Shown here piece by piece: positions 1,502 to 22,306 of a stretch of 64,000 nucleotides of DNA (the stretch's first letter is position 1; each line of letters opens with the position of its first letter). Under the pieces are notes generated by a model. That model made no database searches. It saw only the letters and a list, made by a program, of their open reading frames with translations, and had not been told where the DNA came from. The DNA comes from a virus: IMG/VR virus record IMGVR_UViG_3300035698_018317, positions 62,001 through 126,000 of that record; one strand, given 5' to 3'. A program made the translations under genes and the position numbers.

Positions 1502-2485
1502 ATGATACAGCACAACACAATCATAGAAGCGGCAGACCCAGCATTTGAGCAATTAAAAAGCGATGTTGACCGAATTATATCTTCTTTTCAAGACAGACTT
1601 GTTCGTTCAGTAACAAATGTTGTTTCTAATGCGGTACAGTATGCTCGTCAGGAAGGCCCACAGGGACCACAGGGAGCCTCACAAGGGACTTCGCAAGGAG
1701 TATCACAGTCAGGGCATCCTAAATCTCTTCCTTGGTTTAAATATGGAGTACGTGGGTTTTTAAATAAACTCTGGCATGGAGATAGTTCAAGTAATCCAAA
1801 TTACCAAACCGAAGGTATGACGCTTGAATCATATATTCATCTAGAAGAAAAAGTAGATGAAGCCGTAGACATAATTATAGAAGAAATGCTATGCGAAGCA
1901 GGGGTTGCAACAGGTGACCTTCAATCTGGTTGGATGGATGTATTCAAAGATTTCAGAAATGAATTATTTGTAACAATACAAAAACATTTAGCTGGTAAAG
2001 GAACTGTTGCCGCCCCTGATGCTAAAGAGCCACAATCTGAGCCGGAAGTTGAGTCACAACCTGAAACTAACGAACCAGAGGTTGTAGACCCTAAAGACAT
2101 TCCTCCTTCGGATAACGTGCAAGCAGATTCAGTTCGTTGGTGGAACCATGCTGGTAAACAGCATTTTGACAATGAAGAAACGCCAAAAATAGTAAAATTT
2201 TTAGATAGGCATCGTAGACATGAAACCTATAGAAGAATTTTTGCAAAGAAAAGGGACAAAGCGGTGGAAATTATGAAAGAAGCAGGGTTAGACCCAAATA
2301 AACCAGAAGATATTAAATTAGTATGGCCATGGCATTTAGATGTTCCAATAAGAGGGGCGAAAGTTGTAAAAGGTGCCTCGGCTCTTGAATCAGAAGACCA
2401 TAAAACGGCTATGAGAATATTAGAAGGTGCAAAACCAAGTACAATGGCCACCTACTACAAAATGTTATTAGAGTCCAGACGATAA
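1502..2485 (+). CDS. Hypothetical protein with Gly/Gln/Ser collagen-like linker
   Basis: The 327-residue product has a helical N-terminus, a low-complexity linker at about residues 52-70 (repeats of QG, PQGPQG, SQGTSQG), a central helical domain, an acidic Pro/Glu-rich spacer near 175-200 and a basic C-terminal domain. No catalytic motif is visible. N-terminal IIE resembles the (I/L)-x-E cleavage motif of T4-type prohead proteases, so a virion role is possible. There is no Shine-Dalgarno; instead TATATA at 1490-1495 ends six bases before the ATG, one of the leaderless-type starts of this window. It converges with the next gene, overlapping by 18 bp. Confidence 0.55.
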   Translation: MIQHNTIIEAADPAFEQLKSDVDRIISSFQDRLVRSVTNVVSNAVQYARQEGPQGPQGASQGTSQGVSQSGHPKSLPWFKYGVRGFLNKLWHGDSSSNPNYQTEGMTLESYIHLEEKVDEAVDIIIEEMLCEAGVATGDLQSGWMDVFKDFRNELFVTIQKHLAGKGTVAAPDAKEPQSEPEVESQPETNEPEVVDPKDIPPSDNVQADSVRWWNHAGKQHFDNEETPKIVKFLDRHRRHETYRRIFAKKRDKAVEIMKEAGLDPNKPEDIKLVWPWHLDVPIRGAKVVKGASALESEDHKTAMRILEGAKPSTMATYYKMLLESRR

Positions 2486-2863
2486 ACCCTTAGATATATT
2501 ATCTAAATTTTCGACATCAACATATTGACCATCCTTTAAATTAGGGATGGTCTTTATTTTTTCTTTATATTCCGATTTGATACCTTCTATGACCTTGGCA
2601 TCTTCTTTATTTTCTGGGTCTAGTAATTCTTCTTGAGCCAACCCTACCGTATTAGACCACAAGAAAAAAGAAGGTAAACCTGTTGTGGGCTGTGTTGTAT
2701 ACACCCCGCCATCATCTATATCTTCTATGAGTCCAACGAAATACGTATACAAAGGCTTGGGATATGTTGTTGGATTTTCAGCCTTATAATCTCTGTTTAT
2801 AGGAGTTGTAAATATAGTGCATATTTTCCCGAGAAATATTTTTTTAAGTTTATTGATATCCAT
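2468..2863 (-). CDS. Hypothetical phage protein (131 aa)
   Basis: No family recognised. The sequence looks like a compact beta-rich domain (KICTIFTTPINRDY, YTYFVGLIEDID, PSFFLWSNTVGL) with a charged C-terminal helix; the middle resembles a small SH3-like fold, but this is only an impression. The start at 2863 has no Shine-Dalgarno: TATATT (2870-2875) lies exactly six bases upstream. It lies downstream of the primase on the same strand. Confidence 0.5.
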   Translation of the reverse strand: MDINKLKKIFLGKICTIFTTPINRDYKAENPTTYPKPLYTYFVGLIEDIDDGGVYTTQPTTGLPSFFLWSNTVGLAQEELLDPENKEDAKVIEGIKSEYKEKIKTIPNLKDGQYVDVENLDNISKGLSSGL

Positions 2864-2869
2864 AAAATT

Positions 2870-2875
2870 AATATA
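2870..2875 (-). promoter_or_regulatory. -10-like element of a leaderless-type start
   Basis: On the minus strand TATATT is followed by six bases and then the ATG at 2863. No Shine-Dalgarno is present in between, and no convincing -35 was found. Confidence 0.4.
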
Positions 2876-2899
2876 GTTCTAAATTTTTTATAAAGAAAT

Positions 2900-3928
2900 T
2901 CAAATTTCTTGAAGTTCTATTATTAAAGGGTCAAATTCCTCTTCGTATTCTTGAAGATAACGGTTGAGAACATTTGGTCCCAATTTAATCAACATTTCAT
3001 TCCAATCTTTATACTTTGTTGGTGGTTTTACATACTTTATTTTACCTTTGAAGCTCCCCATAGGTATTAAACCACCAATTTTTTTCATCGCATTTATACC
3101 GGCCTTATCGTTATCTAAGGCAATCACATGTTGATATTTTATCATAAAATATAATTGCGAATCATGAATTTCTTTTCCACCTAATGCGACCCCGTTTAAT
3201 CCTGCTGCACAGATAGCCAGTGCATCAAATTCACCTTCAGTAATGTAAATCTTGGCACCATCTTCAGGCCACCCTTTAGGCATATAAACTACGTCTTCTT
3301 TAGCTATCCCAGTTTTTTTATCCGGCCCCATATATTTCATGACATTCTTAGATTTTCCAAGGTATCTTCCATTGAAATATATTAATTTTCCATTTCTATC
3401 ATAATAAGGAATTATGATTCTATTTTTATAATCACCACCGACACATACATAAAACCCATCTATAGGAAGCTTTCTTTCTCTTAGGTGGATTTCTGCCGCA
3501 TTTCTAAAATAATCTCCCTCGGGTAAATCTTGAATGCGATAAGTCATCTCAGGAAAACTTATCTTATCTTCTTCTGGATTAGTTTCCACAATAACTTTGT
3601 GAGTCTTACTTTTACTTCGAGTCATTTCTTCGACTTGTTTTTCCATAGCAGCGAAAGTTAAGTCATATCCTTCCAAAATTTCTAATGCTTCATCAAAAGG
3701 ACAATTATCAACCTTCATAACAAGGGAAACTAGACTTCCTTTATTTCCCGTCTTCCAACAGTGATAAACACCATTGGCTCTCTCTTTCTTTCCGCCCTTA
3801 GTGTTACACCACATCTTGTGCTTATAATCTTCACAAAAAATAGAATTGACTTTGACTTCATCGCCCTTAAGGACAACATCGCCAAATCGACTCTCAACCC
3901 AACTAACAAATTTATCATGATTAATCAT
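2900..3928 (-). CDS. DNA primase, DnaG/TOPRIM type
   Basis: The protein synthesises RNA primers for lagging-strand replication. The N-terminus holds a Cys/His zinc-binding region (FCEDYKHKMWC and GVYHCW, residues about 31-58). The TOPRIM domain follows at about 220-310, with the conserved glutamate in ITEGEFDAL and the metal-binding ALDNDKAG. At 342 residues it is the size of a stand-alone phage primase without fused helicase. It is read from a canonical promoter (TTGGCA, 17 bp, TAGAAT) ending eight bases from the ATG, divergent from the nuclease gene. The helicase partner is not in the window. Confidence 0.88.
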   Translation of the reverse strand: MINHDKFVSWVESRFGDVVLKGDEVKVNSIFCEDYKHKMWCNTKGGKKERANGVYHCWKTGNKGSLVSLVMKVDNCPFDEALEILEGYDLTFAAMEKQVEEMTRSKSKTHKVIVETNPEEDKISFPEMTYRIQDLPEGDYFRNAAEIHLRERKLPIDGFYVCVGGDYKNRIIIPYYDRNGKLIYFNGRYLGKSKNVMKYMGPDKKTGIAKEDVVYMPKGWPEDGAKIYITEGEFDALAICAAGLNGVALGGKEIHDSQLYFMIKYQHVIALDNDKAGINAMKKIGGLIPMGSFKGKIKYVKPPTKYKDWNEMLIKLGPNVLNRYLQEYEEEFDPLIIELQEI

Positions 3929-4812: not shown

Positions 4813-5298
4813 ATGCTTACAATAGCAATATCTCATAATATATTCCTTACTAAAGATGAACTTGCCACCCTTTCCATGGGAGAACCCGTAGAAACAATCG
4901 GTGTTAGCCTTCCTGTTTGGTTTTTTCAAGGCAATACGTCCGAACCCGCACACGAAGTGTTTTGCGAGTATAAATTAACAAACATAAAAGAAGATTATCC
5001 CGTTACCATTTTGGCAAAAGGATATAGAATAAATTTGCCTCAAGTTCCTGCTATGTTAAGTAAATTGAAAAAGCCTTCTAAAAGACAATGGGAAGAAATG
5101 ACTATCTCTGAGAAGGAAGATTGGAGGCAGGAAAACCCTGTATCTGTAACGGGGGAGGATTTACTGGACATAGATGAAGTAAATCCTTTTCACTTCAAGA
5201 AATACAATAAAATAAAAGAAGGCGACAGGCGAATGAATTGTATTCACGCTGTAGAAATCAGTACGTTTGAATTGTTGAATAAGTCTCTTACTTTTTAA
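4813..5298 (+). CDS. Hypothetical protein (161 aa)
   Basis: No family recognised. The product has a beta-rich N-terminal half (ETIGVSLPVWFF, EVFCEYKLTNI, YPVTILAKGY) and a helical charged C-terminal half containing a Trp/Glu-rich segment (RQWEEMTISEKEDW). It begins 11 bases after the nuclease gene with a weak AGG ahead of the ATG, so the two are probably one transcript. It converges with a virion-type gene and overlaps its end by four bases. Confidence 0.5.
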   Translation: MLTIAISHNIFLTKDELATLSMGEPVETIGVSLPVWFFQGNTSEPAHEVFCEYKLTNIKEDYPVTILAKGYRINLPQVPAMLSKLKKPSKRQWEEMTISEKEDWRQENPVSVTGEDLLDIDEVNPFHFKKYNKIKEGDRRMNCIHAVEISTFELLNKSLTF

Positions 5299-5813
5299 GG
5301 GATATCAGTTAAAGAAAGGCCCATTTCAAGAAGTATTTGTTCGCCGTCATTTAATGTCACGGTGGAACCTAAAGCCACAGAAGAAATGAGACTGCCTGAA
5401 TCATTTCCTGCGTCGGTAAGGAATAGATTTTTTACTGGTCCCCATGCTCCACCTATCGCAGAAAAGGCAACCACTGGGCTGTCTGCACGATAGTGACCTG
5501 AATTTAAGGCGACAGAAAACTGACTTAATGATGACACATCTTGCCGAACATAACCGTTTGCTGATGGCTCATTTAGCAAATTGCTCATAGTATCACTAAC
5601 GGCTATAGGGTCTCGTGCATCTAAACCAAAATAATAGAAATCTGGGATGTAAATACTATCTTGCCCACCAGCAAACACAGCGTTTAAAATAAACTGTTCT
5701 CCTTCCGCATGAAGGGTGTTATATAGATTAGAACTCTCCCAAAGAACTTCGCCTGTCTTTGACAAATGTTGTATTTTTTTAATTTTAATTAAGCCATGCC
5801 AGTCTTTTTGCAT
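5295..5813 (-). CDS. Putative virion protein of beta-sandwich type
   Basis: The 172-residue sequence has the Gly/Ser/Asn-rich, alternating-strand character of small tail or fibre proteins (FYYFGLDARDP, ALNSGHYRADSPVVAFSAI, ALGSTVTLNDGEQI). The pattern of a conserved aqueous core followed by a short C-terminal strand is common in phage adhesin or baseplate-associated proteins. AGAGGAA precedes the ATG at 5813, and a TATATA (5832-5837) lies further upstream. No catalytic motif is seen. The exact virion location is unknown. Confidence 0.5.
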   Translation of the reverse strand: MQKDWHGLIKIKKIQHLSKTGEVLWESSNLYNTLHAEGEQFILNAVFAGGQDSIYIPDFYYFGLDARDPIAVSDTMSNLLNEPSANGYVRQDVSSLSQFSVALNSGHYRADSPVVAFSAIGGAWGPVKNLFLTDAGNDSGSLISSVALGSTVTLNDGEQILLEMGLSLTDIP

Positions 5814-5844
5814 AATTGATTCCTCTACCAGTATATATCATAGT

Positions 5845-6018
5845 ATGATATCTTTTAGAAAATGGTTAGAATTAGTTGATTCAGGTCCGTTCGAACCCGA
5901 GAACATCGTAGTCACCGCTATGAATGTTGCATCGGGTCCGGGTTCTTCTGAAATTCCTCCTACAAGAAAAAATAAACATTGTATGAAAAAGAAGATGAAG
6001 AAAAAGCAGAAAAAGTAA
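5845..6018 (+). CDS. Small protein with capsid-targeting-like N-terminus (57 aa)
   Basis: The protein begins MISFRKWLELVD, the shared N-terminal motif of this window, and ends in a very basic Lys-rich tail (KKKMKKKQKK). The motif is like the T4 capsid-targeting sequence, and a basic tail would suit a DNA-binding internal head protein; that role is inferred. An in-frame ATG far upstream lies inside the opposite gene and is not used. There is no Shine-Dalgarno; TATATA (5832-5837) ends seven bases before the ATG. Confidence 0.55.
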   Translation: MISFRKWLELVDSGPFEPENIVVTAMNVASGPGSSEIPPTRKNKHCMKKKMKKKQKK

Positions 6019-6243
6019 TTACCACTTATTGTTCTTTTTCTCGTCATCGTCATCATTGTAGATTTCTTCTTCTTCTATTTCATCATCATCACTATACGGC
6101 CATTCTCCATCTCCATTAGGGTAAAATACCCATTTTTCTTCTTCGTTATCTTCAGATTCATTTTCCCAATCATCGTCTAATAATTCATCATCATCGTCCT
6201 GCCACTTTTTATTCTTTTTTAATCGTGGGTCTTCTTGCGTCAT
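6019..6243 (-). CDS. Very acidic small protein (74 aa)
   Basis: About half of the residues are Asp or Glu, in runs such as DDDDELLDDDW and DDDDE, with aromatic residues between (WVFYPNGDGEWPY). No family recognised. Such acidic proteins in phages can be DNA mimics or inhibitors of nucleic-acid-binding host proteins, but nothing here proves it. AAGGAAA precedes the ATG. It lies directly downstream of the metallopeptidase gene (nine bases apart) and probably shares its transcript. Confidence 0.55.
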   Translation of the reverse strand: MTQEDPRLKKNKKWQDDDDELLDDDWENESEDNEEEKWVFYPNGDGEWPYSDDDEIEEEEIYNDDDDEKKNNKW

Positions 6244-6252
6244 ATATTTTCC

Positions 6253-7653
6253 TTAATCAATAAAATTTCTTAATAATTTTCCATTTTTAACTGCCCACAT
6301 TTCTCTACTGCCTACTTTTTTATTTTCCTGTTGTATGCTTATTGCAGAGTCAATGGCAGATTGAATTACTTCTTGTTCATCTACATGTGTTTCTTCAACA
6401 ACTTTCCCTTCTGAGTCAAATTCATATCCTGTATCTATAGGAACTTCAATTTGTGCGTTCAGGAACGGGTTGTCTGAGTTTAATGCGGTTATTGCATAGT
6501 CTGATGGTTTGATTGTTCTTTTGTTGTTTATTCGTAAAAAGCATCTTGGTTTATCTTCAAAAATATCATCTTCTTTTTTGAGACACATCTTTACATCATC
6601 AATAGACTTAGATGAAGATAATCCTATAATGTTTTCACTAAGTATTTTTCGTTCTATAAAAACATCTTTTATTATTTTATCATATCCTTTATCATCTAAT
6701 TTAGAAGCATAAATCATATTTTCTGCAATTGATTTTGTAAATCTTACAGTTTTTGGTGCTTGAGCTACAGCTTTCAATAAATATCGGCAAGTAATATCTT
6801 TTGCTTTATGGAGTATAAGTGCTTTATTTTTTTTATTTTTTGTTTTCATGTCTTCAAAAATACGAACCATAATTTCATACCAAGCACCTGCAAATACTCT
6901 ACCAAAACTATGACACTCATTGGCTAATATTGCGTAAGGAGCTTTTCGAGGTAGCGTTTTAGGTTTAGCATATCCGAAAACATTTGTAACATCACGAAGG
7001 GAATCTAAATTTCCTTTTTGTTTATTAGTGATATTGAATGCTATAGCACCAATTTGTTCTGCGAGTTTAGAAATGACATTACTTTTCATCATATTGCCAT
7101 TAGTTTCTGAAAGGGCTTTGGCAATTACTTCTTCATGTTGCATAATAGAAAGTATTGCAGTGATATCGGCAAATGCTTCGTGAAAAGACCGAATTTCCAT
7201 CGCTGCTTGGTTCCATAAATCAGGTCTTAATAAATCGAGAATAGCATGGCCTAATTCATGAGCCACTATGTCTGCTGAGTCTGATGTATATACTGTTTCT
7301 TTCGTTTCAGGATTCTTTGCATAAAAGAAACGAAGTGCTTTTCTGTTGTAATTTGCATTTAATTGCTGGCCAGCCATAGGATAAATTTTTAAACAGTTGG
7401 TGGCAGACCACTTTTCAAATGGTTTTATATTCACTAACATTTTGTTAAAATAATTCATACAATTCACTAGCGTGATATAACAACTAGAATTATGAAACTC
7501 AGAAGAAGCCATCTTCGTTGGTTTATAATCATACCGTATGTTTAGACACAAATAACTTGGTGAAGTAGGAATTGTTATTTTCTTTAACAAAGATTTATCA
7601 CTCGGGTCATTTAAAAAATAATATGTTTTTTCTTCACTCATAATCTTACTCAT
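6253..7653 (-). CDS. Zinc metallopeptidase with HELGH motif (gluzincin type)
   Basis: The 466-residue protein contains AHELGH at about residues 131-136 and a third-ligand motif FHEAFAD at 157-163, the HExxH plus ExxxD arrangement of thermolysin-like (gluzincin) peptidases. No signal peptide or membrane segment is visible, so it acts in the infected cell or in the virion. The C-terminal 150 residues are of unknown type. It heads a short minus-strand unit with the acidic protein. The start at 7653 lacks an obvious Shine-Dalgarno; an in-frame ATG four codons later is the alternative. Confidence 0.75.
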   Translation of the reverse strand: MSKIMSEEKTYYFLNDPSDKSLLKKITIPTSPSYLCLNIRYDYKPTKMASSEFHNSSCYITLVNCMNYFNKMLVNIKPFEKWSATNCLKIYPMAGQQLNANYNRKALRFFYAKNPETKETVYTSDSADIVAHELGHAILDLLRPDLWNQAAMEIRSFHEAFADITAILSIMQHEEVIAKALSETNGNMMKSNVISKLAEQIGAIAFNITNKQKGNLDSLRDVTNVFGYAKPKTLPRKAPYAILANECHSFGRVFAGAWYEIMVRIFEDMKTKNKKNKALILHKAKDITCRYLLKAVAQAPKTVRFTKSIAENMIYASKLDDKGYDKIIKDVFIERKILSENIIGLSSSKSIDDVKMCLKKEDDIFEDKPRCFLRINNKRTIKPSDYAITALNSDNPFLNAQIEVPIDTGYEFDSEGKVVEETHVDEQEVIQSAIDSAISIQQENKKVGSREMWAVKNGKLLRNFID

Positions 7654-7698: not shown

Positions 7699-8310
7699 AT
7701 GAACGAAAAAGAAGAGAGAATTAAAGAACAACGAACTTTAGAAGCAGCCCACAAAAATCTAAGTGGATTGGGAGGTAAGTTTGGCATAATCCTGCAAGGG
7801 CTAGGACAGCCTATCATTGCGCAAGGTGGTGGTAGTTTGTATGCGATGATTGAAGACCCTGATGAAATGCACGAAGAGAAAGAACTTGGTGGAACCCCGG
7901 AAGAAATGCAGGGGCAAATACCGTATTTTGACTCTCAAACCGGAGAAGAGCCTTTTGGAGGGGCGTGGAGAAACGATAGAGAATATGTAAAAGAGCCGTA
8001 CAGCGCACACAAGATAGGATATGTGTTTGATGGATTGAGCCGAGGAATTCATGTCGAAATTAAGTATGTGATTGACAACAACGAGCTAACAGTATATCAT
8101 AAGGGCTACTTAGTGTATAGAGAAGTAGCAGGTGACCTATTAGCCTTCGCTCCTAATGACGAATGGGAACAAAAGGTAGATAGATTATTTCAGTCAGCAA
8201 AAAAAACAAGCAATGAGAAAAGTAAGGAATCCCAGAAAGAAAAGGTTGCGAACGCTATGAGAAAAAAAGATAGTTGGTGGCAAACAGTAAAAACTAAATG
8301 GGGTTTATAA
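7699..8310 (+). CDS. Hypothetical virion-associated-type protein (203 aa)
   Basis: No family recognised. The N-terminal half is polar and Gly/Glu-rich; the middle has beta strands ending in a hydrophobic segment (YKGYLVYREVAGDLLAF); the C-terminus is basic and helical (KKTSNEKSKESQKEK). It ends in TAATGA, the last A being the first base of the next gene's ATG, so translation of the pair is coupled. The start has no clear Shine-Dalgarno. Confidence 0.5.
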   Translation: MNEKEERIKEQRTLEAAHKNLSGLGGKFGIILQGLGQPIIAQGGGSLYAMIEDPDEMHEEKELGGTPEEMQGQIPYFDSQTGEEPFGGAWRNDREYVKEPYSAHKIGYVFDGLSRGIHVEIKYVIDNNELTVYHKGYLVYREVAGDLLAFAPNDEWEQKVDRLFQSAKKTSNEKSKESQKEKVANAMRKKDSWWQTVKTKWGL

Positions 8311-8876
8311 TGACAGATGAAAAAAGAATCCAAAGAATAGAAGCATTAGTCGCACAATTCGCTAATCTAGAGGGCAACCCTTTAGATAATGCTCTTCGTT
8401 TAATTTCAACCTTACACACACCACCTCTTACTTATCGCTTTACGGAGAGACCGATGGGTTTTGGCATACAGTTTGATGCCAAGGTAGACGAGCTTTCAAT
8501 TGGTTATTCATATAATGAAGATGGAACAATCAATCAATGGACCAAAATTGAGAGATTTGGTGATACTCAGGAAGAAGCTAAAGCATCTTTAGATAATATG
8601 ATATCTAAACATTATTCTATAAAAAGAAAAATGGCCGCTGAAGGAGTATTAACCCCAATAGACCTAGAAGCATTTGATATTGAACATGGTTTAAAAGAAA
8701 AAATAACTTTTTCTGCTCAAGTATTATACAACGTAGGATTGGGTCCAGAATTCTTTGATATACCCAATATAGAAGCAATTAATGTTGATGATGCAAAAGT
8801 TGAAGCAAAAAAATTAGCAAATGAAAAATTTGGCGATGGCAATTGGATGGAAGTCAAAGTCAAACCTATTTCCTAA
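8310..8876 (+). CDS. Hypothetical protein (188 aa)
   Basis: No family recognised. It starts MTDEKRIQRIEAL, with ATG at 8310 overlapping the stop of the previous gene and a GGGG Shine-Dalgarno-like stretch inside that gene's end; an ATG at 8298 is less likely. The protein has an N-terminal helix, a beta-rich central domain (YRFTERPMGFGIQFDA, LSIGYSYNEDG) and an acidic, helical C-terminus. It converges with the LamG-containing gene and overlaps it by 11 bases. Confidence 0.5.
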   Translation: MTDEKRIQRIEALVAQFANLEGNPLDNALRLISTLHTPPLTYRFTERPMGFGIQFDAKVDELSIGYSYNEDGTINQWTKIERFGDTQEEAKASLDNMISKHYSIKRKMAAEGVLTPIDLEAFDIEHGLKEKITFSAQVLYNVGLGPEFFDIPNIEAINVDDAKVEAKKLANEKFGDGNWMEVKVKPIS

Positions 8877-10266
8877 TTTGATAATTTAATGGATTTGGAT
8901 GACTTCCATAGTGAGGAAGTCTCACAAATCGCAACCTATCAAGAGCAGTTATAGGCTTTTGTATTAGTTGGCCATATTTAGTTAGCATTAATGATTCTTC
9001 TATACCCGTCTTATCTCCGCCGCTAGGCTGGTTCCCAGTCAATATTCCGTTCAAAGTAAGACTTGATATTGTAGGAGTCTCAGACGTTACTGGAGGGGCA
9101 CCAGCATCATACAATGATTCTAATTGAGCAACAGACAATGGTGTATCCCAAATTGCCACTTCATCAATTACACCATTAAAGTAACCACGTTTAGTAGAAC
9201 CATTAGTCTGCATACTAGTAGCAAAAACTAATGGTTGACCAGAATACCAATCAGGGTCTTCCGTCATAGCCACAGAGCCATCCTCAACTGCATTAAGGTA
9301 TACCTTATGAGTAGAACCGTTGTAGATTATGGCAGCAAAATACCATGTGCCATTTTCAATAGTAGTAGCACCCGTAACAGGAACGTTCACACCATCCGAC
9401 AACTTTTCTGTATCGCCAGCTAATTTAACCCCAGATACCGTGTTAATACCAAGCATATAGTTAGCATTGATTCCAGCAGGAGATTCTTGCTCGGCACAAC
9501 CTTTGGATACTATCGGCTCAAAACTAGCAATGCCGCCATTACCCGTTGTGTCACCATCACCAGTGCCCGTTCTGTTAAACCAACAAGTAACAGTATATTG
9601 CTGACATCCCATTGCGGTTGGACCAGTTCTTGGAACTACCGCCTCTGCATTTTCTAACTGTATATAACTAGAACTGCCATTAAAAGTAGCAGCGGTATCA
9701 GCATCTCCAGATATTCCGCCAGCCGTTCCGAATGTCGTGCTGACCACATCTACACTATCATTGTTGTTAGCCGTTTCATCTATAACTTGGCTAGAACCGA
9801 GAGGCTCCCCAAGTCGCCAATACCCTTTGAGGTTGGCACTTTCTATAGCTTCAAGTATTGTTTGGTAGTCAGAACCACCACCGCCACCAATTCCTCTATC
9901 CAAATTAGCTAGTATCTGATTATATCGTCCATCTTCAAGTGCCGATATATCTAAATCATTGGCACCATCAGATAACACGACAGTCACAAAATCTTTTGAA
10001 GTAGACCCATTATCACTACTATGGACATCTACTTCTATTGATTGCCCATCAGTAATAGATGTCGTGACTTCAATCGTGGACCAATCAACTTCCTCTCCAG
10101 CATCGGCCCAACTAGAGGTGTATATCCCAGTATCAAATCCGCCTTCTACCCATATTTCACTAACCTCAACTTCATGCTGCGTGGTATTTCCTAAGTCATA
10201 TGCGGCACCCACAGCAATAGTTGTCGAAGTTGTGCCAATGAACCGTTGCCGCAAATTGACTCGCAT
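8866..10266 (-). CDS. LamG-domain virion adhesin part (probably the frameshifted 3' half of the upstream gene)
   Basis: The frame has an N-terminal beta domain (about 1-125), a Gly-rich hinge (GGGGGSD, about 130) and a concanavalin/LamG-like module at about 140-380 (YWRLGE ... GVIDEVAIWD), followed by a 75-residue C-terminus. The LamG module closely repeats that of the upstream gene. The ATG at 10266 has no Shine-Dalgarno and lies inside the end of the upstream gene, in a frame shifted by one base. I think both belong to one receptor-binding or glycan-binding virion protein, with the frame broken near 10200-10270. Independent translation cannot be excluded. Confidence 0.6.
   Translation of the reverse strand: MRVNLRQRFIGTTSTTIAVGAAYDLGNTTQHEVEVSEIWVEGGFDTGIYTSSWADAGEEVDWSTIEVTTSITDGQSIEVDVHSSDNGSTSKDFVTVVLSDGANDLDISALEDGRYNQILANLDRGIGGGGGSDYQTILEAIESANLKGYWRLGEPLGSSQVIDETANNNDSVDVVSTTFGTAGGISGDADTAATFNGSSSYIQLENAEAVVPRTGPTAMGCQQYTVTCWFNRTGTGDGDTTGNGGIASFEPIVSKGCAEQESPAGINANYMLGINTVSGVKLAGDTEKLSDGVNVPVTGATTIENGTWYFAAIIYNGSTHKVYLNAVEDGSVAMTEDPDWYSGQPLVFATSMQTNGSTKRGYFNGVIDEVAIWDTPLSVAQLESLYDAGAPPVTSETPTISSLTLNGILTGNQPSGGDKTGIEESLMLTKYGQLIQKPITALDRLRFVRLPHYGSHPNPLNYQIRK
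9100..9840 (-). repeat. LamG module, copy 2 of a tandem duplication
   Basis: The encoded about 240-residue module (from YWRLGE to the GVIDEVAIWD segment and beyond) is matched by a very similar module at 10430-11170. Shared stretches include VIDETANNNDSV, GISGDADTAATFNGSSSY and GSTHKVYLN. Boundaries are approximate. Confidence 0.7.
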
Positions 10267-13165
10267 CAGAATATAATTCTACATTGGCGGGAGTGCTATC
10301 ATTTACAATGGCTTTGAAGTCTGGGCGGTCGCCAATAGAAAGCGTGGGTGTTCCAGTAACGGCAACACCAGCCCTAGTTCCGTCACAAAGACGCCATACG
10401 CCAGTTTTAGATATATTATTAGTGCCAACGTTATGCAGTTCTACGAGTTGAGTTGGCGTTAAAGCTTTATCCCAAATTGCAACTTCATCAATCACACCTT
10501 TGAAATAACCCTGCCTTGTGGTTCCATTAGTCCTAATGCAAGTACCAAAAGCTAATGGCTGACCAGAATAATAGTCAATGTCATTCGTAGCAGATATTGA
10601 CCCATCTTCTACGCCGTTTAAATAGACCTTATGAGTAGAACCGTCAAAGACAATAGCAGCAAAGTACCATGTGTCATCAACAATAGCGGTAGAACCTGTG
10701 ACTGGCTTATTTAAACCGCCAACCATTTCTTCTGTGTCACCAGCCAACAAAACCCCAGAACCCGTATTAAGTCCAAGCATGTAGTTGGCATTAACTCCAG
10801 CGGGAGATTCAGACTCGGCACAACCTTTAACCACCAAAGGTTCAAAACTGGCGATGCCACCACCGCCAGTTCCAGTACTAGTTCCACCGCCAACCGCCCT
10901 CTTGAACCAGCAAGTCACTGTATAATACTGAGCACCCATCGCAGTTGGTTCTGTTCTTGGTGCTGTTTCCGCATTTTCTATTTGAACGTAACTTGAACTT
11001 CCGTTAAATGTTGCAGCGGTATCAGCATCTCCAGATATTCCGCCAACCGTTCCGAATGTCATGTTAGCTAAAGCTACACTATCGTTATTATTAGCTGTTT
11101 CATCAATAACTTGACTAGCACCAGCACCCTCTCCAAGACGCCAATATCCTAATAAGTTGGCACTCTCAGTGTCGGTAACTGTCGTTTCATAATCGGGAGC
11201 ACCGCCTGAGCCTAGAAAATCTGAGCCTGCATATTCGTAGTGAGTTGTATCTTCATACCTATAAATAGCATTACGCATTCTAAATGCGTCATTACCTTCA
11301 GGGTCACCGCCAGCATCAACAAACGTGACTGTATAATCCGACAAGGCACTTTCTCCCGGTGGAAGATTCAACACAGCCAGTGCTTGGGCATAATCTACGC
11401 CTATTGGAGACTGCACCCACAAATAATCATTAGAGCCGGGAGTGTCAACAAAATTGATATCTCTCAAGCTCATTGTTCCGCCGTCGCCAGCAACCGCCCA
11501 AACAGCGGAATTATCTGACCATTTTAGATTCGCTAAGTCTTCATCGGTTACCGTTGAGAAATCTTGGTAATATCCGCAACCAACTACACCATCTTTAACG
11601 TACACTAGGTCACCAGAACCGTCTTCCCAATCAGTACCGCTAATCTCTCTAGAATATTCTGATAAGGTAGCTGTTTGGCTTGTTAATGATTGGAGTGTAC
11701 CGCCGCCTTGAAGTAGTTCAACTTCAAATTCATATTCAGGTTCAGTCAAGCCGCTAATAGCAGCCGGAATGTCTTGGTTGTCACCAGCAGTCTTCGCTTG
11801 ATAAGTTGTATACTGCCAAGCACCCGGAGAGGTATCACGATACCTAAATCTAACATCTCCAGCAGCTTGTAAGCTAACAGTAGAGTTGGCTGTAAATGAA
11901 GTAGATGTTGTATCTGTCGCCGCATCGGTTGCTAAAGCAACTAATTTTGAGGGGATGTCAGATGCAAAAATTTGTGTCGTTCCATCATTCTCTAAACACT
12001 GGTCGTGATAGCTAAGCCCATCAATTGTTAATATATCGCAATTTTGTCGCCCACTTGCTGATACTACATCATATCCATCGCCATCAATCCACCATTCGCC
12101 GATAGAGCCACCACTGAAAGTAGTATTACCCATCGGTCCATCGCCTAATTCTCTCAACCCTAAAGCATCTGTAGTAACATTACCAGCGCCAGAGGCGGTA
12201 GCCCAATCATCAATAGGCTGTCCTAATGTGGCGAAATGGTCATGCCCAGCATATGTGGATGATACACCATATTGCTGAAACAACGGACCCCATATGGTTC
12301 GAGCCTCAGAAGACCCAGATGCACCTAAACCATTTGACCCCGGCCATGCAGGATAGTGATAAGTTGCAATTATCCAGCGGAGAGTAGCATCTGTAGACGC
12401 TCTTATCAATGCATCTGTCAAGAACCCTAGCTGCCCATCCCAAGTAGTAGGATTTGTATAACTACCTTGGTCCCATTGCTCGATGTTACCACTATCTAGA
12501 CCAATGATTAAAACATCGCCAATTTGAACTTTCCAGTGGTATTGAGGCGTAAAGAAAGCATTAACATATTCTGGTGCGCTTCCCTCTAATTCATGGTTGC
12601 CTAAAATAGCCATAAGGGGAACTCTAAATCCAGTTGGAGTTACCCATTCGCCGCCTTGTCCGTCGCCCGATATGATGTCGAACATTTCTGTCCAGTGCGA
12701 AAGAGTGTTGCCATTATCGACCATATCACCACTATGGATGAGAACTAGTGGTTCCTTGGACATAGCCACAGTGGAAGTCAGACGGAAATCAGCCCTATAA
12801 GTAGCATTGAGGTTTATTTGAGCATCACTACCTTGAACAAATACCTTTTCACCCGCATAGCCAGCAGAGGGTGCAGTACGGAATTTTCTAACGGCACCAG
12901 CATCGCTTGATACTTTGAAGTAAAAGGTAGTATTTGCTGTCAGTCCAATTAATTTGGCGGTATGCACCCAACCACCTGCGAGGGCTTCAGAGGTACTATC
13001 AACATTAGAAGTTAGTGCGCCAGATGTAAGCCCATAGTCAACCTGAACAGGTTCAGCCTGCCCACTATCCCTCCACTTGACAATCATCTCAGTAGTAGGG
13101 TCAAAAGTAGCTGCCCCAGTCTGTGGCATCCACACCAACCATTGATATTCTAGAACTGAAGCCAT
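10196..13165 (-). CDS. Virion adhesin with purple-acid-phosphatase and LamG domains
   Basis: The 989-residue product begins with a fibronectin-III-like domain as in purple acid phosphatases (about 1-100). A calcineurin-like metallophosphoesterase domain follows (about 105-330), with HSGDMVDNG, LGNHE (about 188-192), ATYHYP and AGHDH in the right order; the first GDxG motif is degenerate (VQGSDAQ). After spacer beta domains comes a LamG module at about 660-900. LamG and fibronectin modules on a phage suggest a fibre or spike that binds glycan; the phosphatase may act on cell-surface phosphoesters. An AAAGG precedes the ATG. The last residues (YCCGCRI) look like out-of-frame translation. Confidence 0.7.
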   Translation of the reverse strand: MASVLEYQWLVWMPQTGAATFDPTTEMIVKWRDSGQAEPVQVDYGLTSGALTSNVDSTSEALAGGWVHTAKLIGLTANTTFYFKVSSDAGAVRKFRTAPSAGYAGEKVFVQGSDAQINLNATYRADFRLTSTVAMSKEPLVLIHSGDMVDNGNTLSHWTEMFDIISGDGQGGEWVTPTGFRVPLMAILGNHELEGSAPEYVNAFFTPQYHWKVQIGDVLIIGLDSGNIEQWDQGSYTNPTTWDGQLGFLTDALIRASTDATLRWIIATYHYPAWPGSNGLGASGSSEARTIWGPLFQQYGVSSTYAGHDHFATLGQPIDDWATASGAGNVTTDALGLRELGDGPMGNTTFSGGSIGEWWIDGDGYDVVSASGRQNCDILTIDGLSYHDQCLENDGTTQIFASDIPSKLVALATDAATDTTSTSFTANSTVSLQAAGDVRFRYRDTSPGAWQYTTYQAKTAGDNQDIPAAISGLTEPEYEFEVELLQGGGTLQSLTSQTATLSEYSREISGTDWEDGSGDLVYVKDGVVGCGYYQDFSTVTDEDLANLKWSDNSAVWAVAGDGGTMSLRDINFVDTPGSNDYLWVQSPIGVDYAQALAVLNLPPGESALSDYTVTFVDAGGDPEGNDAFRMRNAIYRYEDTTHYEYAGSDFLGSGGAPDYETTVTDTESANLLGYWRLGEGAGASQVIDETANNNDSVALANMTFGTVGGISGDADTAATFNGSSSYVQIENAETAPRTEPTAMGAQYYTVTCWFKRAVGGGTSTGTGGGGIASFEPLVVKGCAESESPAGVNANYMLGLNTGSGVLLAGDTEEMVGGLNKPVTGSTAIVDDTWYFAAIVFDGSTHKVYLNGVEDGSISATNDIDYYSGQPLAFGTCIRTNGTTRQGYFKGVIDEVAIWDKALTPTQLVELHNVGTNNISKTGVWRLCDGTRAGVAVTGTPTLSIGDRPDFKAIVNDSTPANVELYSDASQFAATVHWHNFDNYCCGCRI
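10430..11170 (-). repeat. LamG module, copy 1 of a tandem duplication
   Basis: Partner of the module at 9100-9840. The two copies are separated by about 590 bases that contain the suspected frameshift. The similarity points to an internal duplication within one long adhesin gene. Boundaries are approximate. Confidence 0.7.
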
Positions 13166-13218: not shown

Positions 13219-14139
13219 TTAAGGCGTAACTAAATCGCCTGCTTCAAGAGTGTATGGTTCTTCCGTTGTTTGTGTCGGCTGAAGGTTGGTATCAGCATTT
13301 CCTGCATATACATACGTAATTTTTCTTCCTAAATCACCTACAACTGCACCTGCGGGAAATTCTACAATTTCTCCGATTCTTTCAATAGCTCCTGCTGTAT
13401 TTGATAAAGTTATACTTTGGAAATTAAAGATTCCAGAACGGCCCCTTAACAGTTCGTAATCATCTTGAATTACGGTTCCGTCAAAGTTTAAACTAACTCC
13501 TTTGAAGTTTACTGCATTATTAACAACATTCAAGTCAACTGTGTTTGCAACAGTATCTAAAGGAACTATCATTCCTGTAGAATCGGCGAAGTCATCCCAC
13601 TGGTTTACTTCATGTCTACTAAAATAAGTTGGTAATTCAGACACACCCGCACGCCCATTGAATTGGAGAGCTTCTTCTGCTCTTCCATTTACAATATAAA
13701 ATTTCATTCTTGTAGCATCGAAATTAGAGCGAATCATTACTACACGGGTGCCTTCAGGAATCGAGTTGTCACCCGTGTTGGTTTGAATAAGAGCCGTAAA
13801 CATTGCAGTAAAGGCTACATCCGAATTTAATGCGGCAACTACTTCATCTGAGGTAGTTGCGGCGGAAAGAAGAGTAGGTGCTGTACCTACGACATCCATC
13901 GTCGCATATTGTCGTATGTTTGTATTAAATGCTGTGCGTATTTGCAATGTATCTCTAGAATTACCATCTACATCATTACCAGCAAAATTATACACTGGCG
14001 TAGGGGGTTGCCAAGACACAACTAAAGTCTCGCCTCTTCCGGCATTTCTAGGACATTTAAATGTAAGGCTTTGCTGGCGGTCGCCTAGCACCCAATTGCC
14101 TTGATAATCTTCAAAAAATGGATTTTGGAACCAACTCAT
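13219..14139 (-). CDS. Putative virion structural protein (306 aa)
   Basis: No catalytic motif. The composition is that of a structural protein: few Lys and Cys, many Asn, Thr, Val and Gly, alternating short strands (TLVVSWQPPTPVYNFAG, VNFKGVSLNFDGTVI). A head-decoration or tail component is most likely. A strong Shine-Dalgarno (GAGAGG) precedes the ATG at 14139. The gene lies upstream of the adhesin on the same strand and directly downstream of two terminators, so it starts its own transcription unit. Confidence 0.55.
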   Translation of the reverse strand: MSWFQNPFFEDYQGNWVLGDRQQSLTFKCPRNAGRGETLVVSWQPPTPVYNFAGNDVDGNSRDTLQIRTAFNTNIRQYATMDVVGTAPTLLSAATTSDEVVAALNSDVAFTAMFTALIQTNTGDNSIPEGTRVVMIRSNFDATRMKFYIVNGRAEEALQFNGRAGVSELPTYFSRHEVNQWDDFADSTGMIVPLDTVANTVDLNVVNNAVNFKGVSLNFDGTVIQDDYELLRGRSGIFNFQSITLSNTAGAIERIGEIVEFPAGAVVGDLGRKITYVYAGNADTNLQPTQTTEEPYTLEAGDLVTP

Positions 14140-19804: not shown

Positions 19805-22306
19805 ATGCCTTTTTGGTCTGATTTATATAAATTATGGACGTATGCTTTTGAGAAAGACCCTCTTTCGAGAAGAACTGATGACTCTGGAATTTCTGGTGCT
19901 GGTGTTACACAGCCAGAAGCAATCCCAGACATTAGACAAGACGGAAGTTTTTGGGGTGGTGGTAAAGGTCTAGTACGTCTTCGAGATACGAACGATTTTA
20001 TTGACCTCTCTACCGTCTCAAACAGAAAGAGTAGATACAAAGAATACGAAAGATTAAGGAATGTTCCTGAAATAGAAACCGCCATGACTGTTTTTGCTGA
20101 CGAAGCATGTCTTGCGGGAGCAACAAAAATAGCTACAGTTGCCGAAGGCTTAGTTTCTATCCAGAAATTAGCTGAAACTAAAACAGAACCATTTTTGGTC
20201 TACTGCTGGGATTTTGAAAAAAATGATTACACAATAGGCTGGGCTTCTGACCCACGCTATGTGAAGACAGAGAAAACTATCAAAATCACATTAGATAATG
20301 GAAGATTTTTCAGATGTACCGTAGACCATCGTGTTTTGAGAAGAAACGGTAAATTTATAGAAGCAGGAAAAATAACAGAGGGTATGGAATTAATGCCTTT
20401 CTACAGAATCCCTGCTAATTATGAAAAAACTCAAATAAAAACAAAACAATTCCCAAGAATATTCACATTCACAGATGGCTGGAAGCACGAAAGACAATTT
20501 ATTGATGAATGGAGATTGGGACGTTCTATTGAAAAATATAAAGATGTAAATGCAGCTTGTCGGGCTTTAGCTGCTGGATTAACCACAAGACAAATAGCTA
20601 AAATAATGGGGCATCAATGGATTACCATAGATTCAAAGATAGCCAAAGAAGGATTTACCACTAGCGAAGTAAAATGGCTTGGTAAAAAAGAAGATGTAAG
20701 ACGTGTTATTGGTGTTCACAAAGACCGCACCGAAGACGTATACGATTTGTCAGTAGAAAAACATAAGAATTTCTGCGGCGACTCTTGTATTTTCCATAAT
20801 TGTCAAAGAGGCGATAATAATCACGTATTTGACATTATTTGTAAAGATAATGATGTCAAAAAAGAACTGGACTTTTTATTCTTCCATCGAAAAATGCTGA
20901 ACATGGATAGGAGAATTTGGAGTAGGTCAAAGAATCTCTTCATTATGGGAGATGAATTCTGGGAAATCGTTATTGACCCAGACAATCCAAAAGATGGTAT
21001 CTTAAAGATTCAAGAGTTACCTCCTGATAGTATGTTTAGAATTGAAACCACAAAAGGTAAACTTGTGGAATTCCAACAAGCTAAAGAAGGTCCAGATTAT
21101 CAGGCATTAACAAAAGCTCCGATACCTCAAGCTACAGAATCATCTATACAACAATCAAAAGCATTAAGGTTTACTCCAGACCAGATTGTTCATATGAAAA
21201 TTGGAGATGATAGAAAAACATTCTATCCATATGGTCAAAGTTTAGTAGAGCCAGCAAGAGGCCCAGCACACCAATTGCGTCTGATGGAGGATGCAATGGT
21301 CGTATACAGGCTCTCCCGTGCGCCTGAAAGAAGGGTGTTCTATATTGACGTTGGTAATCTTGCTCCCTATAAAGCAGAAGCTTTTATGGAAAGATTAAAA
21401 GACCAATTTAGAAAGAAAAAAGTTGCTGGTAGAACAGCAGGCACTTCAAGTGGTGCATCTGCTGTTGAAGAAAGATGGCACGCACGGGCGGCTGATGAAG
21501 ATTATTGGCTACCAATTCGTCCGAATGCCAATACCAGAATTGATACTCTCCCCGGAGCACAAAACTTGGGAGAGATTGATGATGCTGTATATTTTAGAAA
21601 TAAATTATTCACGGCTTTAAATTTCCCCAAAAATTACATGTCCAATGAAGATGTGCAAACAACAAGAATTGCTCTATCTGCACAGGATTGTAAGTTTGCA
21701 CGACTTGTTGAAAGATTACAAAGTCATATGGAAGATGGAATTTGGGCTGTTGCTGACCGTCATCTTAAACTACGTGGATTCCCAGAAGAAGCTTGGGAAG
21801 ACCTTATTATAAAATTAACTCCTCCTTCTGATTGGAGAGAGTTGAGTAGAGCAGAAGTTGTCTCGAATAGAATCAACAACGCAAATAGTTTAAAAGGTTC
21901 TATGCTGATGTCTGATTTTGATATCCTTACACAATGGATGAAATTAAATGAAGATGAAGCCCAAGATATGATGTCAAGGATGAAAGTTCAAAAACTTGAA
22001 GATATGAAACTTCAGGTGTTGGCACAGAATCCGCAGCTTCTAGGTGTGGGCGTTCCCGGCATAGGAGGACAAGAAGTTGGGGCTGAAGGGCCAAGTCAAA
22101 TGCCGCAACAACCACCTGAAGGTGCTGGCCCAGAAATGGGTGCGGAACCTCCGCAACAGCCCACTGAAGGTGGAGCACCAGCACCAGCTACATCAAGTGG
22201 AATCGCACTTCCAAAACCATCGACAGGTGACTTGAAGAAGTATGACCTACAAATTCAGACATATAGTAGCGAACAAGACCATGAAGACATAGATTTTAGT
22301 CTATAA
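19805..22306 (+). CDS. Portal protein containing a mini-intein
   Basis: The 833-residue precursor consists of a T4 gp20-like portal interrupted after residue 101 by a 231-residue intein (102-332). After splicing the portal would be about 602 residues. The portal forms the dodecameric ring through which DNA enters the head. Recognisable portal segments are TVFADEA-CQRGDNNHVFDI across the splice site, FIMGDEFWEI, QIVHMKIGDD and a conserved LFTALNFPKNYM. The C-terminus is a Pro/Gln/Gly-rich tail. An AGGAAAA Shine-Dalgarno and an upstream TATATA support the start. Its place after terL and before the protease is canonical. Confidence 0.92.
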   Translation: MPFWSDLYKLWTYAFEKDPLSRRTDDSGISGAGVTQPEAIPDIRQDGSFWGGGKGLVRLRDTNDFIDLSTVSNRKSRYKEYERLRNVPEIETAMTVFADEACLAGATKIATVAEGLVSIQKLAETKTEPFLVYCWDFEKNDYTIGWASDPRYVKTEKTIKITLDNGRFFRCTVDHRVLRRNGKFIEAGKITEGMELMPFYRIPANYEKTQIKTKQFPRIFTFTDGWKHERQFIDEWRLGRSIEKYKDVNAACRALAAGLTTRQIAKIMGHQWITIDSKIAKEGFTTSEVKWLGKKEDVRRVIGVHKDRTEDVYDLSVEKHKNFCGDSCIFHNCQRGDNNHVFDIICKDNDVKKELDFLFFHRKMLNMDRRIWSRSKNLFIMGDEFWEIVIDPDNPKDGILKIQELPPDSMFRIETTKGKLVEFQQAKEGPDYQALTKAPIPQATESSIQQSKALRFTPDQIVHMKIGDDRKTFYPYGQSLVEPARGPAHQLRLMEDAMVVYRLSRAPERRVFYIDVGNLAPYKAEAFMERLKDQFRKKKVAGRTAGTSSGASAVEERWHARAADEDYWLPIRPNANTRIDTLPGAQNLGEIDDAVYFRNKLFTALNFPKNYMSNEDVQTTRIALSAQDCKFARLVERLQSHMEDGIWAVADRHLKLRGFPEEAWEDLIIKLTPPSDWRELSRAEVVSNRINNANSLKGSMLMSDFDILTQWMKLNEDEAQDMMSRMKVQKLEDMKLQVLAQNPQLLGVGVPGIGGQEVGAEGPSQMPQQPPEGAGPEMGAEPPQQPTEGGAPAPATSSGIALPKPSTGDLKKYDLQIQTYSSEQDHEDIDFSL
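20108..20800 (+). other. Mini-intein inside the portal gene
   Basis: The intein starts with Cys102 (CLAGATKIAT, block A), has the block B motif TVDH in GRFFRCTVDHRVL, and ends with block F/G motifs VYDLSVEKHKNFC ... IFHN followed by Cys333 as the first C-extein residue. At 231 residues it is too short for a full LAGLIDADG domain. The central part carries a helix-turn-helix-like segment (LTTRQIAKIMGHQWIT), perhaps the DNA-binding remnant of a lost homing endonuclease. Cys1, the terminal HN and Cys+1 are all present, so splicing should work. Confidence 0.92.

Follow-up and report, generated by a model that had tools for sequence, protein, structure and literature searches.

In a 64-kb stretch of DNA (hereafter, the window; bases 62001-126000 of a 225-kb virus record), a minus-strand open reading frame (ORF) of 989 aa encodes a fibronectin-III (FnIII)-like N-domain of the type found in purple acid phosphatases (PAPs), a metallophosphoesterase (MPE) domain, a beta-rich linker region and a LamG domain. 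An overlapping 466-aa ORF in the +1 frame encodes a second LamG domain and a C-terminal tail. Both lie in a variable cassette bordered by two conserved genes (Table 1).

Table 1. Positions of the 989-aa and 466-aa ORFs, their domains and their conserved flanks in the window
Feature	Position	Strand	Basis or remark
Conserved 306-aa gene, 5′ of variable cassette	13219..14139	(-)	78% identical in L008; homologue in LR756511
989-aa ORF	10196..13165	(-)	
FnIII-like domain (Pur_ac_phosph_N), residues 23-97	12875..13099	(-)	Pfam E 2.3e-10
MPE core, D114 to H310	12236..12826	(-)	Pfam and alignment
Ligand codon D114	12824-12826	(-)	
Ligand codon D147	12725-12727	(-)	
Ligand codon N190	12596-12598	(-)	
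Ligand codon H270	12356-12358	(-)	
Ligand codon H308	12242-12244	(-)	
Ligand codon H310	12236-12238	(-)	
LamG domain 1, residues 722-906	10448..11002	(-)	Pfam E 1.1e-18
Likeliest switch from 989-aa to 466-aa frame	10239-10245	(-)	Codon-usage likelihood
466-aa ORF, +1 frame	8866..10266	(-)	
LamG domain 2, residues 197-381 of 466-aa ORF	9124..9678	(-)	Pfam E 1e-17
Convergent conserved gene, other border of cassette	8298..8876	(+)	L009 8997-9620, directly after 306-aa gene

The record contains T4-type portal, TerL, prohead protease and major capsid genes, and its TerL is 51% identical to the counterpart in LR756511, a 595-kb metagenomic phage. A baseplate module (gp25, gp6-like) is located at record 42-57 kb, and genes at record 145-148 kb encode T4-type tubes and a contractile sheath; hence, the phage is a myovirus. 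A run of PKD-domain fibre-type proteins 3′ of the baseplate genes (L046 10121-15309; record 52-57 kb) is likely the main fibre module. In the window, the T4-type portal gene (19805-22306, plus strand) is interrupted in frame by an intein (Intein_splicing, E 1.1e-10) that is also present in a relative, L008. A second relative, contig L009, has an intein-like insertion in an AAA ATPase gene (5136-7073) and a homing-endonuclease-like ORF beside TerL (2170-3078), both absent from those places in the window. A separate 466-aa protein (window 6253-7653, minus strand), with a HELGH-type zinc-protease motif and weak Peptidase_M4 similarity, is conserved in L009.

Domains and reading frame

The first-pass annotation had described window positions 12100-13165 (minus strand; residues 1-355 of the 989-aa ORF) as an FnIII/MPE pair fused to LamG modules. 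The pair is well founded: matches to Pur_ac_phosph_N (PF16656; 41.4 bits, cut-off 30) and Metallophos (PF00149; residues 136-310, E 4.3e-8) exceed the curated Pfam cut-offs, as does that to Laminin_G_3, and the motifs that had been quoted are located at residues 146 (GDMVDN), 189 (GNHE), 269 (YHYP) and 307 (GHDH). The fusion holds for one LamG domain, but the second sits in the next, overlapping, frame-shifted ORF. A phmmer search matched the protein to solved PAPs (6GIT, E 1.4e-4), and a family profile built with the window sequence among its members matched red kidney bean PAP (1KBP) at E 4e-40; judged by sequence comparison, the PAP-type profile match is far beyond chance. Single-sequence AlphaFold prediction of residues 1-365 gave a pLDDT of 37.9, too low for a usable fold. 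We found no named PHROGs family for the protein and no close homologue of the whole protein in phages, and no viral relative turned up when viral contigs were scanned with the PAP domain or with an alignment of bacterial PAPs. In an alignment of eight sequences, no stretch was sufficiently conserved for such a scan.

The 989-aa and 466-aa ORFs overlap by 71 nt, and the regions of LamG 1 and LamG 2 are 68% identical over 258 aa. Codon-usage likelihood places the switch between frames inside the overlap; placing it at the ATG costs 8.6 log units, and at the TGA 14.4. Thus, the two ORFs probably make up a single gene of about 1,430 codons, split by a one-base frameshift, and an arrangement of two separate genes is disfavoured by codon usage. 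Mutation, assembly error and recoding all fit the break. If the frameshift is real, the gene may be decaying, with only an N-terminal 989-aa fragment or nothing useful being made. A switch point away from start and stop codons is consistent with decay, as is deletion of the slot in L009; however, the halves are otherwise open, the domains are intact and the ligand positions are kept, and the same picture would result from recoding or from an assembly error of one base. We therefore regard decay as unlikely.

The metal site and its cellular relatives

The metal site was judged by alignment alone. Aligned to bacterial and phage homologues, the window protein keeps all six MPE ligand positions (D114, D147, N190, H270, H308 and H310), so the ligand loss that the first-pass annotation had named as evidence against its reading was not seen at the sequence level. 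With a further motif that had gone unlisted (GSDAQ, which holds D114), the protein has the five motifs and the D, D, N, H and H(x)H ligands of the calcineurin-like metallophosphoesterase superfamily. The presence of these domains and of the ligand set is near certain.

The label of purple acid phosphatase fits less completely. The N-terminal FnIII-like domain and the MPE ligands are those expected, but the residue aligned to the defining Fe(III)-ligand tyrosine of GDxxY is D150 (in GDMVDN). Plant PAP 1KBP, which by profile has the FnIII and MPE fold in common with the window protein, and with which six of seven PAP metal-ligand positions are conserved, has the Fe(III)-binding tyrosine in GDLSYAD, and homologues from Sphingomonas and Paraburkholderia retain it (GDLCY). 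Since this tyrosine is replaced, we describe the window protein as PAP-like rather than as a true purple acid phosphatase. Nor is it a PhoD-like phosphodiesterase: it has GNHE and no PhoD match.

The nearest relatives of the window domain are bacterial FN3-metallophosphoesterases (PAP-like), with 23-25% identity over about 320-360 aa. These are cellular genes, mostly with an export signal and often beside TonB receptors. Tail fibres often reuse enzyme folds for binding, and the MPE of a virion adhesin could likewise have ceased to be enzymatic and serve as a phosphate- or glycan-binding module. This is improbable, because the six ligands and the catalytic-type GNHE histidine are kept despite about 25% identity to the nearest homologues found, which points to selection for catalysis. 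A human-gut "phage" sequence, MT837099 (L011), was left out of the phage cases as apparent bacterial DNA, since it has a hydrophobic N-terminus and apparent cell-envelope neighbours. In Natronorubrum daqingense plasmid NZ_CP019329.1 (L024 23304-26147), two LamG genes come directly after an FN3-metallophosphoesterase gene that has no signal peptide. The long operon to which they belong encodes unknown proteins and resembles a virus tail module. We found no PHROGs structural match in this operon, which is possibly an archaeal virus or a surface array.

A variable slot and a candidate virion adhesin

Gene content between the 306-aa gene and the convergent genes differs among close relatives. The 306-aa protein, which borders this slot, is kept in three related phages, LR756511 among them; searches of Pfam, PHROGs, NCBIfam and PDB returned nothing for it. 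In L009 the flanks are the same, the adhesin-like gene is missing and a remnant of a 97-aa gene is left. L008 has the 97-aa gene, then the start of a different beta-rich gene (9250-9537) that reads ASFTSKATGLWDSEGQTTWNEAGHP... after a TTG start and ends at the contig edge; we found no PHROGs or phage matches for it. The slot is thus apparently exchangeable. GC content is 0.443 in the cassette and 0.463 in its PAP part, above the 0.369 of the window, and this compositional difference suggests that the phage acquired the adhesin-like gene.

The first-pass annotation had placed the phosphatase on a phage adhesin. A check of N-terminal hydrophobicity indicated no signal peptide in the window protein: the maximum 12-residue Kyte-Doolittle value at the N-terminus is 0.73, as against 1.9-2.8 for most bacterial secreted homologues, and values for four MPE proteins of other phages (phage G gp352, crAss002 gp19, DAC22 gp88 and P1312 ORF22) are 0.56-0.78. 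The LamG signature ANLxGYWRL..DETANNND recurs in tail regions of three metagenomic phage contigs, L004, L032 and L001, where the neighbours are tape-measure, tail-tip or tail-tubular-type genes, as assigned partly from reading of the sequence rather than from family searches. In L004, FnIII repeats and LamG follow a tape-measure-like gene, and in L032 the LamG gene lies between a tail-tip-like gene and an amidase. Prochlorococcus phage P-SSM4 has LamG in its gp7 baseplate wedge. Hence, the window protein has the tail-type carbohydrate-binding domains, the lack of a signal peptide and the variability among relatives expected of a tail adhesin. Its gene, however, lies outside the tail and baseplate modules, at record 70.9-75.2 kb on the opposite strand and away from the baseplate/fibre, sheath and tube genes, and we found no phage-specific attachment domain in the protein. 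We infer a virion location from the absence of a signal peptide, the recurrence of this LamG type at tail tips and the turnover of the slot, and conclude, with some reserve, that the protein is probably a virion adhesin.

Alternatively, the protein could be an auxiliary enzyme for phosphate acquisition, off the virion and either freed at lysis or active in the infected cell. Phosphate-stress genes are known from T4-like phages of waters poor in phosphate, and the bacterial relatives of the window MPE are secreted phosphatases. Nevertheless, the missing signal peptide, the fusion to two tail-tip-type LamG domains and the adhesin-like turnover of the slot make such a role quite unlikely.

We propose that the protein is an exchangeable virion adhesin whose LamG domains hold glycans while an active metallophosphatase works on the bound polymer, and we give this proposal as a whole an even chance; activity, substrate and virion location are its inferred parts. 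The two lectin-like LamG domains would bind host surface glycans, and the N-terminal FnIII and binuclear metallophosphatase would cleave phosphate esters of the polymer so held or of one nearby, such as phosphorylated LPS, capsule or another phosphoglycan. Phosphate removal might aid adsorption or access to the next receptor. The first-pass suggestion that a phosphatase on a virion adhesin removes surface phosphate is plausible in outline, also in view of the parallel fusions in phage G, crAss-like phages and P1312 described below, and for an active surface phosphatase carried on the virion we see the case as roughly balanced. Teichoic acid, one of the substrates suggested, is unlikely if the host is Gram-negative or cyanobacterial. 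The majority of the closest named TerL matches are from phages of such hosts, making phosphorylated LPS or capsule the better guess.

Parallels in other phages

Searches that started from the domain uncovered other phage proteins built on a similar plan, though none was closely homologous over the full length. Bacillus phage G gp352 (866 aa) combines Mtd_N, LTD, PAP_N and MPE domains and, like the window protein, pairs an FnIII-like PAP N-domain with an MPE. Mtd_N is a tail-fibre-type domain, and the next gene, gp353, begins like a fibre protein. In contrast to the window protein, gp352 has a C-terminal MPE with GNND in place of GNHE, includes an LTD and lacks LamG; similarity between the two MPEs is marginal (E 0.03).

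Two crAss-like phages also encode large LTD and MPE proteins, crAss002 gp19 and cr60_1 gp49; in the structural region of each, internalin-like genes come directly after the gene for this protein. DAC22 gp88, which also combines LTD and MPE, is related to them. Unlike the window MPE, those of the crAss-like phages and DAC22 have GNND and form a separate subgroup, and the crAss-like members are podoviruses. The cr60_1 gene (L036 6291-9671) is open only if TAG encodes glutamine, consistent with stop-codon recoding. The description of crAss002, in which tail components are still to be identified, mentions neither a phosphatase nor mass spectrometry (PMC8042965). The closest sequences to the window MPE are secreted enzymes of bacteria, and its similarity to the phage G and crAss-like group is marginal, so its recruitment looks independent.

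Thermobifida phage P1312 ORF22 (1,096 aa) has the same order as the window protein, an N-terminal FnIII-like domain and an MPE-superfamily domain followed by a carbohydrate-binding region, but it is a PhoD-family, PhoD-like phosphodiesterase (DDHD motif) with CBM_4_9 in place of LamG. Its gene lies directly after a tape-measure gene and a tail gene. Its authors proposed that secreted ORF22 prevents superinfection (PMC4569894), and the window protein could similarly act on the surface of the infected cell, or of neighbouring cells, to keep competing phages from adsorbing. We consider this very improbable: both proteins lack a signal peptide, and the core of ORF22, its C-terminal half, is common to minor tail proteins of Streptomyces phages. 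Rowlf gp26, also PhoD-like, is encoded between a major tail gene and a head-to-tail adaptor. PhoD genes of Streptomyces phages (Paradiddles) lie among tRNA genes, indicating that some phage MPEs of PhoD type are not tail-linked.

These parallels raise a broader hypothesis, to which we give somewhat less than even weight. Receptor-binding proteins may have gained PAP-like or PhoD-like metallophosphatases separately in three or more groups of phages: this T4-like lineage; phage G, crAss-like phages and DAC-type Bacteroides phages together; and P1312. These would then make up a general class of virion enzymes that take phosphate off surface polymers, altering them as the phage adsorbs. The enzymes known from phage receptor-binding proteins are chiefly glycan lyases, hydrolases and esterases. 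If the hypothesis is correct, dephosphorylating virion enzymes would stand alongside glycan depolymerases and deacetylases, a phosphatase would open the cell surface by a different chemistry, and surface phosphate (on lipid A, core, O-antigen or capsule) would become part of phage specificity. Because unrelated phages have the fusion, and phage G and crAss002 among them can be cultivated, the idea is directly testable without the uncultured phage of the window.

A phosphatase on a phage tail is not new in kind, since tail spike subunits of Crassvirales have already been annotated with phosphatase domains (review, PMC10136315) and a 2015 paper described P1312 ORF22 (PMC4569894). What is new here is an example from a T4-like phage, the fusion to LamG and the apparently independent origin.
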